Shown one piece after another: positions 9,187 to 14,114 of a stretch of DNA of 64,000 nucleotides. The translations under genes were made by a program, and so were the position numbers. The notes under the pieces are model-generated. The model was not told the DNA's origin and searched no databases. It worked only from the letters and a program-made list of their open reading frames with translations. The first letter of the stretch is position 1, and each line of letters begins with the position of its first letter. Source of the DNA: Jiella mangrovi (lineage in GTDB: Bacteria > Pseudomonadota > Alphaproteobacteria > Rhizobiales > Rhizobiaceae); contig NZ_JAGJCF010000004.1 of the NCBI RefSeq assembly GCF_017815135.1, forward strand, positions 62,001 through 126,000, read 5' to 3'.

Positions 9187-9996
9187 TCAATCTTTCGCCT
9201 TCCCAAGCGGCTCGGTCGCGTGGCGTTTGATCAGCGGGAGCTGGGTGAGCATGAAGACGATCGTGATCGGCATGGTCGCCCAGACCTTGAAGTTGACCCA
9301 GAAGTCGGTCGAGAAGTTGCGCCAGACGACCTCGTTGAGGACGGCCAGGAAGATGAAGAACAGGCCCCAGCGCAAGGTCAGCTTGCGCCAGCCCTCCTCG
9401 TCGAGCTTGAAGGCCTGATCGAAGACGTAGCCGAGCAGCGACTTGCCGAAGAGGAGACCGCCGAGAAGCACGCAGCCGAACAGCGCGTTGACGATGGTCG
9501 GCTTCATCTTGATGAAGGTCTCGTCCTGCAGCCAGAGCGTCAGGCCACCGAAGACGAGAACGACGGCGAGCGTCACCAGCGGCATGATCGGCAGCGTCCG
9601 GGTGATCGCCCAGGACACCGCCAGCGAAATCACCATCGCCGCCATGAACAAAGCCGTCGCGATGAACAGCGGACCGCCGAGATCGCCGAGGATCGGGAAG
9701 GCGCGGGCGAGATCCTCGCCCCGCGAATTGGCGAAGAAGAAGACGAGTAGCGGCCCAAGCTCCAGCGCGAATTTCAGGAACGGGTTCATCTCCTTGCGGC
9801 CGGGCTTGTTGGGGTCGCGTTCCAAGATCCGTTGGTGCTGCTTTGCCTCGATCTGCGGACGCAGAACCTCGCCGGCGGCGTTGACCTTCAGCCGCGACAG
9901 GCCGCGCTCGAACCAGATCGGCAGCGAGGCGCTGGCCTCGGGGTCTTTCCCCTTGCCAGACGTGTCGTGAGCGTCGTTCTTCTTATGCTTCGTCAT
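9187..9996 (-). CDS. yciB: septation protein A / YciB (IspZ) family
   Basis: YciB is an inner-membrane protein affecting cell-envelope integrity and division. The conserved core starts at residue 52 here ([19 protein letters not shown]) and continues with five to six membrane segments and the family motif [10 protein letters not shown], then [30 protein letters not shown]. The frame adds about 50 hydrophilic residues before the core ([11 protein letters not shown]), so the protein of 269 residues is longer than the usual about 200. ATG 9994-9996 is used. It follows ftsY by 185 bases on the same strand, as in many Rhizobiales. Confidence 0.92.
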
Positions 9997-10181
9997 GTCA
10001 GCCTTGTCGCTTTTCGAGCCTCGCAGTCCAAGGCTTGGTCGGAGCGCCATCGAGAGCGCCGTGGGCCAGTGATCTTGCCGGTGCGTCCGGAACGAATCAA
10101 ACCATTCAGTCGCTCACATGGCCCGCATCCGCGCCTGGCTCAAGGCCAGTCGGCACGCTTCACCGAATTGGCACCGCCATC

Positions 10182-11911
10182 TCATGGAGCGGAGACCGCT
10201 TCCGTCCCCGCAATCGCGCTGGCAAAATCCTTCGCCTTGAAGGGCTCCAGATCGTCGATGCCTTCGCCGACGCCGACGAAATAGACCGGCAGCCGGTGTT
10301 TGGCGGCGATGGCGACCAGGATGCCGCCACGGGCCGTGCCGTCGAGCTTGGTCATGACGAGCCCGTTGACGCCGGAGACGTTGCGGAAGATCTCGACCTG
10401 ATTGAGCGCGTTCTGCCCGGTCGTCGCGTCGAGGGTCTGGAGCACGGTGTGCGGCGCGTCCGGCTCGCGTTTTCCAAGCACGCGGTTGATCTTTTCGAGC
10501 TCGGCCATCAGCTCGGCCTTGTTCTGCAGCCGGCCGGCGGTGTCGATGATCAGGACGTCGGAATCGTTTTCCACCGCCCGGTCATAGGCCTCGAAGGCAA
10601 GGCCCGCCGCATCGGCGCCGATCTGCTTGGCAATGACCTCGGAACCGGTGCGCTCGCCCCAGATCTTCAGCTGTTCGACGGCGGCGGCGCGGAAGGTGTC
10701 GCCAGCGCAGAGCGTGACCTTGAGGCCGCCGCGCGTCAGCTTGGCGGCGAGCTTGCCGATGGTGGTCGTTTTGCCGGTGCCGTTGACGCCGACGACGAGG
10801 ATGACGTGCGGCTTCTTCTCCAGATCGAGTTCCAGCGGCTGGGCGACGGGCTGAAGCGTCTTTTCGATCTCCTCGGCGAGGATGCGGCGAACCTCCGCTC
10901 CGGAGACCTCCTTGCCATAGCGGCCTTCCGATAGCCGGTCGGTGATGCGCATGGCCGTCTCGACGCCGAGATCGGCCTGGATCAGGATGTCCTCGAAATC
11001 CTGAAGCGTATCCTCGTCGAGCCTGCGCTTGGTGAAGAGCGAGGTGATCGAACCGGTGAGCTGGTTCGAGGAGCGGGCGAGGCCCTGACGAAGGCGCTCC
11101 GCCCAGGAGATGCGCGGGGCCGGTGCGGCCGGCGCGGGATCCGCCGGCTTTTCCCGCAGCCGAAAGCCGGCATCGTCCGGCACGGGCGCACGCGGCGGAG
11201 CGGCTGGAACGACGGGCGCGACCGGTTCGACGCGCTCCTCGTCCTCTTCGGGCGGCAGATCCTCGTCCAGCCAGGAGAAATCGGCGCCGTCGTCGTCCGC
11301 GTCCTCGGCTCTTTCGGCGAAGGTCTCGTCGTCGTCAGGCTCTGCCGGCTCGATGCCGACGTGATCGTCCTCGGTGGCCGGCGCGACGTCCGGGGCTGCT
11401 TCCTCCGCTTCGGGCGAGGGCTCGCGCGTCGCGGTTTCGACCGGTTCGACACGTTCTTCGAGAAAGGAGAAATCCGCCTCTGTCTCCTCGACCGGCTCGG
11501 CGCGTTCGAGGAACGAGAAGTCGGCGCTCTCCTCGTCTTCGTCGTCATCGACGGCGCTGCCGGTTTCGGTTGCGGACCAGTGATCGTGCGGATCGGCGGC
11601 GAGTTCAGCGGGAACTACGGAGTTTTTTTTTGAGCCTCGTCGGACGGGCCGGTCTCAGCCTTCGTCGACGCTTCGTCTTCGCGTTGCTTCAGCGGCGTGA
11701 TGCCGCCTTCGTCCGAGGGCTCCGCGCCCGCTTCGCTGTCGGCGATCGAGCTGGCGGCGGCCGTCGGCCGGACCTCGGGGTCCGGCGCCTCCTCGCGACC
11801 GAGCTCGACGTCGGACGGGCGAGGCGTATTGCCATGTTCCGGCGTGCGCTCTTCCTCGCTCTCGGAGCCGAAGGAGAAGATCCGCCGGAAGAAGCCCTTT
11901 TTCTCAGCCAT
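10182..11911 (-). CDS. ftsY: signal recognition particle receptor FtsY, with a -1 frameshift at an A9 run
   Basis: FtsY is the SRP receptor GTPase that docks ribosome-SRP complexes at the membrane. Two frames make one protein. The first (11911 down to a TAG at 11615-11617) begins MAEKKGFFRRIFSFG and is acidic; the second, one base back, continues with ADFSFLERAEP, ADFSFLEERVEP, ADFSWLDEDLPPEEDEE and then the NG domain: SLFTKRRLDEDTLQDFEDILIQADLG, GVNGTGKTTTIGKLA (P-loop), CAGDTFRAAAVEQL, DTAGRLQNKAELMAEL, TKLDGTARGG. Reading back one base within the nine A at 11623-11631 joins them into 576 residues. Without it only the GTG at 11181-11183 would start the NG domain (333 residues). It could be slippage, real mutation or sequencing error. 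Confidence 0.9.
11623..11631 (-). other. A9 homopolymer, slippery site in ftsY
   Basis: On the coding (minus) strand the zero frame reads CAA-AAA-AAA-ACT-CCG-TAG. Backing up one base gives AAC-TCC-GTA and a frame open all the way to the NG domain. A run of nine A suits both ribosomal -1 slippage and RNA polymerase slippage, and is also the classic place for an indel error. Confidence 0.85.
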
Positions 11912-11928: not shown

Positions 11929-13227
11929 TTATCCGGCGTCTGCCGCCACGGGGCGCGCATCGGCTTTCTGCGCGAGCGCCACACCGTTTGATGTCTCTGT
12001 AATGATAGCGTCGATGATCTCGCCGGGGAGGCCCTGGTCGATGCGACAGAGTGTGAAGTTTTCCGCGCGGCCGAGCCCCTCGCGCTCGATCAGAAGCTGT
12101 TGGCGGCTGCCGACGAGGCTTGCGAGATGCGCCGTGTGAGCCGTCTCGCCGGCGGCACGAAGCCGCGCCGCGCGCTCCTTGATGATGGACTTTTCCAGCT
12201 GCGGCATGCGGGCCGCCGGCGTTCCCTCGCGGGGCGAGAAGGGGAAGACATGCAGGAAGGTCAGTCCGCATTCCTTCACGATCGCCAGCGAGTTTTGAAA
12301 CATCGCCTCGGTTTCGGTCGGAAAGCCCGCAATGATGTCGGCGCCGAAGACGATGTCGGGACGCTTTTGCCGGATCTCGGCACAAAAGCGGATCGAATCG
12401 CCGCGTGAGTGGCGACGCTTCATCCGCTTCAGGATCATGTCGTCGCCGGCCTGCAGCGACAGATGCAGATGCGGCATCAGCCGGCGCTCGGAGGCGATCG
12501 CCTCGATCAGCGCCTCGTCCGCCTCGATCGAATCGATCGAGGACAGGCGCAGCCGCTTCAGATCCGGAACATGGCGCAGGATCGCCTGGATGAGGTCGCC
12601 GAGCTTCGGCGTGCCGGGAAGGTCGGCGCCCCAGCTGGTCATGTCGACGCCGGAAAGCACGACCTCGTTATAGCCGGCTCCGACCAGCCGCTTCATCTGC
12701 TCGACGACGGCGCCCATGGGTACCGAGCGCGAATTGCCCCGGCCGAAGGGAATGATGCAGAAGGTGCAGCGGTGGTCGCAGCCATTCTGGATCTGCACGA
12801 TTGCGCGGGAGCGGCCCTCGATCGCGTCGATCATGTGACCGGCCGTCTCGGTGACGCTCATGATGTCGTTGACGCGGACCTTCTCCTCGGCCGAGACGCC
12901 GAAGTCGGGCAGCCTGGCGTAGCTCTCGGCCGAGAGCTTTTCCATGTTGCCGATGACGGCGTCGACTTCCGCCATCTCGGCGAAGCGGCCGGGCTCGGTC
13001 TGTGCCGCGCAGCCGGTGACGACAATCTTCGCGTCGGGGTTCTCCCGCCGGGCCTTGCGGATCTGCTGGCGGGCCTGGCGCACGGCTTCGGCCGTCACCG
13101 CGCAGGTGTTGAAGACGATGGCGCCGTGCGCGGTCTCGCCAAGACCGGCGGTCTCGGCCTCGCGCTTCATCACCGCCGACTCATAGGTGTTGAGCCGGCA
13201 GCCGAAGGAAACGATCTCGACGCCCAT
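11929..13227 (-). CDS. mtaB: tRNA t6A37 methylthiotransferase
   Basis: MtaB is a radical-SAM enzyme that adds a methylthio group to t6A at position 37 of tRNA. The 432-residue product starts [17 protein letters not shown] (the N-terminal MTTase cluster: C10, then FNTCAVT and VTGCAAQ), followed by the radical-SAM cysteines in NGCDHRCTFCIIPFGRG and a C-terminal TRAM-like part. The GCRLN signature separates MtaB from MiaB and RimO. The start ATG (13225-13227) overlaps the dapF stop as TGATG, so the two are probably translationally coupled; ftsY follows after 17 bases. Confidence 0.96.
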   Translation of the reverse strand: MGVEIVSFGCRLNTYESAVMKREAETAGLGETAHGAIVFNTCAVTAEAVRQARQQIRKARRENPDAKIVVTGCAAQTEPGRFAEMAEVDAVIGNMEKLSAESYARLPDFGVSAEEKVRVNDIMSVTETAGHMIDAIEGRSRAIVQIQNGCDHRCTFCIIPFGRGNSRSVPMGAVVEQMKRLVGAGYNEVVLSGVDMTSWGADLPGTPKLGDLIQAILRHVPDLKRLRLSSIDSIEADEALIEAIASERRLMPHLHLSLQAGDDMILKRMKRRHSRGDSIRFCAEIRQKRPDIVFGADIIAGFPTETEAMFQNSLAIVKECGLTFLHVFPFSPREGTPAARMPQLEKSIIKERAARLRAAGETAHTAHLASLVGSRQQLLIEREGLGRAENFTLCRIDQGLPGEIIDAIITETSNGVALAQKADARPVAADAG

Positions 13228-14114
13228 CAGCCGATCTCCCGCCCCTCGGCGGCGTCCCGGACGAAATTCCCGGTTTCGGGATCGAGCATTCCGGACCATT
13301 CCCATTCCGCCGGCCCGGTCATGATCACGTGCTCGTCCTCGCGCCACAGGATCGACAGCTTGCCACCCGGCTGGGTGACGGCGACCTCACGGTCCGTCCG
13401 CCGTGTGCGGGCGGCGGAGACAGCGGCGGCACAGGCGGCCGAGCCGCAGGCGCGGGTGAGCCCGACGCCGCGTTCCCAGGTGCGCATGGTCAGTGACGTC
13501 GGGGAGGTGATCTGCGCGATGGAGATGTTCGCCCGCGCGGGAAAGATCGGATGGTTCTCGAGGATCGGCCCGAAGCGGTCGAGCGCCAGGGCGTCAACGT
13601 CGCCCTTCACCCAGAAGATCGCATGGGGGTTGCCCATCGAGACCACAGACGGCGAATGCAGGACCGGCGCGTCGATCGGGCCGATCTGGAGTTCGATCGC
13701 CCTTGTGTCGCGAAACTCCTCGGCGAGCGGGATGTCTTGCCAACCGAAGCGCGGCTTGCCCATGTCGACCGAGATCAGCCCGTCCTCATGCTCCTCGGCG
13801 AGGAGGAGCCCGGCCGGTGTCTCGAAGGTGAAGCGGGTCTGCCCGGTTTCGGCGGAAAGCGCCTGGACGACGCAACGCGTGCCGTTGCCGCAGGCCTCGG
13901 CCTCGGACCCGTCGGCATTGATGATGCGGACATAGGCGTCCGTGCCGGGCGTCTTTGCCTGATGAATGGCCATGATCTGATCGAAATGTGTCTCGGCCCG
14001 GCCGGCAAGGGCGATCGCCGCGTCAGGCCGGACGCGGGCCGTCGTCTCGCGCATGTCGACGACGAGAATTTCGTTGCCGCAACCATTCATGCGGGCAAAG
14101 GGGACGGAAGGCAC
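13227..14114 (-). CDS. dapF: diaminopimelate epimerase
   Basis: DapF converts LL- to meso-diaminopimelate for lysine and peptidoglycan synthesis. Both catalytic cysteines are visible: ACGNGTRC and [10 protein letters not shown], as well as [17 protein letters not shown] at the N-terminus and [11 protein letters not shown] prefer a GTG start at 14114 (295 residues, starting [11 protein letters not shown]) over the longest frame, which starts at a TTG (14168) only four bases from a terminator hairpin of the upstream gene. First gene of the dapF-mtaB-ftsY series. The start could also be the internal ATG at 14090. Confidence 0.95.

Follow-up and report, generated by a model that had tools for sequence, protein, structure and literature searches.

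Escherichia coli dnaX is subject to −1 programmed ribosomal frameshifting at the heptamer A_AAA_AAG, the shift in prfB is +1, and in Shigella homopolymer slippage in mxiE and spa13 reportedly restores the product or makes another one. Slippage in Thermus dnaX occurs at a nine-base run with stops near in both non-zero frames, and the hybrid held by RNA polymerase measures 9 to 10 bp, both according to the accessible part of the review PMC5009743; on A/T runs, single-base insertions dominate and rise with run length, as stated in the accessible part of PMC5574713. Productive slippage is of a known kind, while ftsY as an example of it is unreported in the open-licence literature searched: no report of a slippage or frameshift site in ftsY was found there, supplementary tables aside, the GeneTack paper (PMC3711429) makes no mention of signal recognition, SRP or docking, and the part searched of PMC5009743 makes none of FtsY, the signal recognition particle or docking protein.

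The locus described here lies in a window of 64,000 nucleotides (the whole stretch of DNA analysed) from Jiella mangrovi, a genus that we assign to the Aurantimonadaceae; the source genome comprises 4.93 Mb in 41 contigs. On the minus strand of the window, the NG frame of ftsY is −1 relative to the N-terminal frame, and the two frames meet at a run of nine A. Comparison with related loci makes it likely that this frame break is a conserved and used slippage site in an essential gene, at which RNA polymerase slips. The parts of the locus are the following.

11615–11911, minus strand: N-terminal zero-frame open reading frame of ftsY, 98 codons from the ATG at 11911 (MAEKKGFFRRIFSFG...) to TAG, with codon periodicity
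11623–11631, minus strand: A9 run, the putative slippage site, read in the zero frame as cAA AAA AAA ACt; at least nine A in 38/38 frame-broken relatives
11615–11617, minus strand: zero-frame stop TAG, 5 nt 3′ of the A9 run
11605–11607, minus strand: third-frame stop TGA, 15 nt 3′ of the A9 run
10182–11654, minus strand: NG frame, open from stop to stop (490 aa), with the acidic A domain and the NG GTPase; used from the run onwards
10212–11021, minus strand: FtsY NG domain, matched by TIGR00064, with Pfam SRP54_N and SRP54 on the same region
11508–11525, minus strand: first repeat of the A domain, ADFSFL
11460–11477, minus strand: second repeat of the A domain, ADFSFL
11268–11285, minus strand: third repeat of the A domain, ADFSWL
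11690–11707, minus strand: GGITPL motif of the N-terminal peptide, 5′ of the run
11181–11183, minus strand: internal GTG, unsupported as a start
11929–13347, minus strand, as ftsY: mtaB, the upstream neighbour (TIGR01579, 451 bits)
9187–10050, minus strand, as ftsY: septation protein A (ispZ), the downstream neighbour

An earlier, sequence-only reading of this DNA had placed the 98-codon frame, its TAG and the A9 run at these positions, all of which check, and had proposed that a −1 shift joins the N-terminal frame to an acidic domain that holds three ADFS[FW]L repeats and precedes an intact NG GTPase. Repeats and GTPase are both there, and the NG frame scores 314.1 bits against TIGR00064 (ftsY; cut-off 260.7) and matches both PF02881 (SRP54_N) and PF00448 (SRP54). 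The genome holds two SRP54-type GTPase matches, the ftsY of the window and one other; since the latter fits ffh best (a 269-aa piece was tested), the genome has only one ftsY. The MAEKKGFFRRIFSFG segment and the acidic repeats are both present in the window's FtsY, and a membrane-binding role of the N terminus is putative. According to the accessible part of PMC2780400, E. coli FtsY(NG+1), which is without one of the two lipid-binding segments, has reduced activity, so that what is encoded 5′ of the run is probably of importance to full-length FtsY as well.

Both halves of the gene are under coding constraint. Counted by codon position over 11 pairs of relatives, differences number 104/85/297 in the zero frame 5′ of the run (981 codon pairs), 309/308/658 in the A domain, read in the NG frame from the run to the N domain (1791 codon pairs), and 119/85/796 in the NG domain (3410 codon pairs). 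Each half shows codon-position periodicity; the sequence-only reading had remarked that both looked selected. From the run to the N domain the NG frame is nearly devoid of ATG (5 in 5282 codons, none in 24/29 loci), which makes a separate start for the second half unlikely.

We compared 53 distinct ftsY loci, made up of 37 from the Aurantimonadaceae (L023–L059, taken from the best 80 related loci listed), four genus members (L003, which is the window itself, L005, L008 and L012) and 12 more, the last remaining after 16 of 28 additional loci were left out for NG DNA identical to that of loci already counted; one of the 21 genomes used in adding loci (G407) had no match at the threshold. Four loci whose start was missed by the motif (L040, L045, L052 and L053) are included in the final tables. 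In 38/53 loci, one of them (L024) on a record titled complete genome, the N-terminal and NG frames differ in register, always by the same step, and an A-run stands at the junction in every one: 36 have A9, one has A10 (L031, Fulvimarina manganoxydans) and one A11 (L134). Even L058, from which the N-terminal region is mostly gone, keeps the run and the frame break. The 15 in-register genes comprise 13 without a run, among which no locus is out of register, and two that keep A9 (L025, Jiella flava, and L132) with one extra base 3′ of the run relative to their relatives. Runs of at least nine A number only four in the whole 4.93-Mb genome, and with this scarcity and the recurrence in 38/53 related loci the frame break in ftsY is more than chance. 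The sequence-only reading had called the gene broken, a word that does not suit a break conserved at the A-run; it had also held that relatives with a run length restoring the register would make slippage unlikely, and among the 40 run-bearing genes there are none.

Elsewhere in these ftsY genes lysine is encoded by AAG 855 times and by AAA 64 times (n = 919, away from the run), and the run is therefore kept against codon preference. When 394 genomes sampled from the family were scanned for GGCT[CG]A9C, the pattern turned up in 22, of which 18 read as ftsY and four as other genes; a reversed control pattern occurred in two genomes. In L122 and L123 (genus g47, not Jiella), GGCTCA9C lies in frame in a gene that is CpoB/YbgF-like by eye. 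Among 43 further Rhizobiales loci, the start motif lies in the NG frame in 36, a contig end cuts five, and L060 and L099 are ambiguous by motif. The Rhizobiales loci L065, L069, L075 and L091 have FtsY A domains with long Pro-Glu repeats at contig ends, which suggests assembly breaks at the repeat. A separate A10, one of the four runs of at least nine A in the Jiella genome, is found at L128 (G000:C38 near 252785, minus strand), where a frame with a peptidoglycan-binding domain stops soon 3′ of the run and another frame beyond looks coding; this is possibly a second frame break, and the genus contains no close orthologue of the gene.

The sequence directly after the run closes both wrong frames. 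A zero-frame stop lies within 26 nt 3′ of the run in 37/38 genes (4.13 expected), a third-frame stop within 50 nt in 36/38 (9.92 expected), and both frames are closed in 35/38 (1.1 expected), the loci being related and the counts being of sequences rather than of independent events. Expected values were obtained by synonymous codon shuffling with the genes' own usage, the NG-frame protein being kept. In an earlier set of 29 genes both frames are closed in 26, against 0.61 expected, and in the in-frame genes without a run both other frames are closed likewise at 26 of 2504 codon positions. A tree-based test of independent pairs had three supported pairs only and no power. The two stops occur in 20 distinct arrangements, from which it follows that wrong-frame stops have been replaced repeatedly.

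Codon choice accounts for these stops. Of the 47 CTN codons that lie at most 16 codons from the run, 23 are CTA before G or A, against 2 of 240 from codon 24 on, and NNT before GA, the source of a TGA in the third frame, stands at 38/171 near the run and 71/1616 far from it. NNT not before GA is unchanged (46/437 near, 455/4519 far); stop-making codons are enriched near the run only where a stop results. GC content is lower near the run (0.666 vs 0.735 elsewhere), and local base composition was considered as the cause of the wrong-frame stops; the codon-choice control counters it, NNT not before GA being equally frequent at both distances. In 28/38 frame-broken genes the zero frame ends in TAG. 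A reading of this excess as an RF1-specific signal was dropped, because where the NG frame encodes Leu-Glu, CTA GAR is the only spelling that can produce a zero-frame stop.

The locus shows three sequence features of transcriptional slippage: a run of about nine A in a coding region, a conserved change of register and stops in both other frames. We infer from the observed split, its conservation, the coding of both halves and the closure that the slipping machine is RNA polymerase. It would slip on A9, a length able to fill the 9 to 10-bp RNA:DNA hybrid, and so produce mRNAs with mixed numbers of A. The unslipped, templated mRNA, which meets a stop at once after the run, would yield no more than a short N-terminal peptide (about 98 residues in this gene); an mRNA with one extra A, or any in the same register, would be read on through the A domain and NG GTPase to full-length FtsY, and an mRNA in the remaining frame would stop immediately. 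The frequency of slipping would then set the amount of SRP receptor. The change needed in ftsY, one added A, fits the insertion bias on A/T runs reported in the accessible part of PMC5574713.

Several readings compete with this one. One is −1 programmed ribosomal frameshifting of the E. coli dnaX type, at A_AAA_AAA; the mRNA would then be uniformly A9 and some ribosomes would slip by −1. Such a site would fit the nearby zero-frame stop and the heptamer, which is in phase (the run starts in phase 1 in 37/38 copies and in phase 2, the A11, in one), and GAGG stands at most 10 nt 5′ of the run in 13/38 copies, including eight of the Jiella group; the mean anti-SD energy over 29 loci is slightly better than background (−4.32 vs −3.63). 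It needs only the zero and −1 frames, however, and should leave the third without selection, yet site-specific codon choice closes that frame within 50 nt in 36/38 genes (9.92 expected). No stimulatory RNA structure was found 3′ of the run (29 loci, pseudoknot-free folds; mean z 0.09, 3/29 below −1), nor a universal SD-like element 5′ of it (38 copies, GAGG in 13), anti-SD pairing is weak in 8/10 named Aureimonas copies, and seven A would be enough for the heptamer, yet 40/40 run-bearing genes keep at least nine. We consider ribosomal frameshifting of this kind improbable, with roughly the standing of an outside chance. Less probable still is ribosome sliding on the A-run, which could reach any frame, would also explain both closures and is known on iterated AAA in E. 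coli; the accessible part of PMC4363877 describes little truncated product at A9 or A10 and a robust one at A11, whereas 36/38 runs here are A9. Selection on the third frame implies that the site gives rise to molecules in every frame, and this closure, together with the lack of 3′ structure and of a universal SD element, favours polymerase slippage over −1 ribosomal frameshifting. A pair of separate proteins, the NG part beginning at an internal start codon, is very improbable. The GTG at 11183, which the sequence-only reading had put forward as a possible start for the NG domain alone, does exist, and an SD-like sequence precedes some GTG or TTG in 5/29 loci, but the A domain of the window has no such sequence before any of its ATG, GTG or TTG codons; the near-absence of ATG between run and N domain (5/5282 codons, none in 24/29 loci) and the coding of this acidic stretch in the NG frame also speak against it. 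Sequencing error or a pseudogene deserves almost no credence. A9 is error-prone for some sequencers, which would favour an artefact, but the break, at the A-run and in the same register, is common to 38/53 loci on many separate records, both halves are coding and ftsY is single copy. Phase variation of the run in DNA was considered as well and rejected: an essential gene would mostly be sampled in register, but 38 of the 40 genes with a run are not, and in no case does run length bring the frames together. The earlier choice between slippage, by polymerase or ribosome, and an indel or sequencing error therefore narrows to slippage, with the polymerase favoured by the closed third frame.

Another alternative concerns the purpose of the split, and its odds are separate from those of the mechanisms above: an indel, rescued by slippage, came to be tolerated, the essential gene was then bound to the run, and the split is useless. 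We regard this neutral entrenchment as possible, though the less likely reading. On a tree of the NG domain (53 loci and six outgroups), presence of the run needs about six changes, so that the run is dispensable in some lineages; one reading is that it was ancestral at the base of the group and lost several times, and since deep branches are open, gains are possible too. Repeated loss of run and split together, and several lineages living with a single frame, would suit entrenchment, as would L132, which keeps A9 in register, is sister to the run-less L032 and looks intermediate; the wrong-frame stops, too, may serve only to limit useless products. L132 and L032 both adjoin the out-of-register L029 and L030 on the tree, an arrangement which suggests that in loss the frame was restored first and the run disappeared later. 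These loci form a natural series: out of register (L029/L030), A9 in register (L132), run lost (L032). Retention of the run in L025 and L132 was considered as proof that two products are needed, an argument that was dropped because L132, beside run-less L032, looks like a step toward loss. Runs of A9 length are expected to change length often. Were the split idle, in-register run lengths should be common, and they are found in 0/40. GGIxP, moreover, is present 5′ of the run in 39/40 run-bearing genes (the exception is L058) and in only 1/13 run-less ones (L032); its third codon positions vary, and it looks conserved as a peptide. When pairs are matched for NG identity, N-terminal regions resemble each other more among frame-broken than among run-less genes in 5/5 bins; the pairs are not independent, the stretch compared in run-less genes was delimited by length, the slip set excludes L058 and the top identity bins hold three, three and four run-less pairs. 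At NG identity 0.84–0.88, median likeness is 0.42 (201 frame-broken pairs) against 0.27 (22 run-less pairs).

That the split has been kept is plain from these loci; as to why, the remaining readings would be use and the entrenchment of an accident. The absence of in-register run lengths, the distribution of GGIxP and the N-terminal likeness together favour use. What use the polymerase slippage proposed here would have is speculative: the slip ratio might be regulatory, or the short peptide might have a function of its own. Since GGIxP accompanies the slippage site, the short product may itself be a working protein. We tentatively suggest that obligatory RNA polymerase slippage could act as a dial on SRP-receptor output, with the short anchor and GGIxP peptide perhaps functional, for example as a competitor for FtsY membrane sites, and with a slip frequency that could follow transcription speed or nucleotide pools.

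If the reading of polymerase slippage is true, these GC-rich bacteria have an essential housekeeping protein that faithful transcription and translation of its gene would be unable to yield. The case also warns that an essential gene in working order can have the look of a broken one. With sequence alone, the closed-third-frame test can separate −1 ribosomal frameshifting from mechanisms that populate all three frames, and other 'frameshifted pseudogenes' could be examined in the same way.

Among described systems, E. coli dnaX has in common with the ftsY site an A-rich slippery heptamer and the −1 direction; ftsY differs in showing neither a 3′ stem-loop signal nor an SD element common to all copies, and in its closed third frame. 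Like ftsY, prfB is an essential gene with a conserved frameshift that is lost in some lineages, but the accessible part of PMC12421855 describes it as ribosomal and autoregulated by RF2, with TAG not detected as the stop, whereas TAG serves in 28/38 ftsY genes. Homopolymer slippage as proposed here is also described for Citrobacter tssM; tssM, mxiE and spa13 are secretion or regulatory genes, whereas ftsY is essential and universal and carries its site across many species of one group. In Buchnera and Blochmannia, A-run frame breaks are thought to be rescued by transcriptional slippage, as we propose for ftsY, but according to the accessible part of PMC3017870 the coding regions of Blochmannia genomes contain 114 to 153 long polyA tracts, against four runs of at least nine A in the Jiella genome, and ftsY is set apart by the closure of both wrong frames through enriched stops. 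The accessible parts of PMC5009743 and PMC1088944 describe in Thermus thermophilus dnaX (tau/gamma) the same combination as in ftsY, nine A/T in a housekeeping gene with stops near in both other frames. There the templated frame yields the full-length protein, whereas in 38/40 run-bearing ftsY genes it yields the short product; L025 and L132, unlike the other run-bearing genes, have the dnaX-type register.
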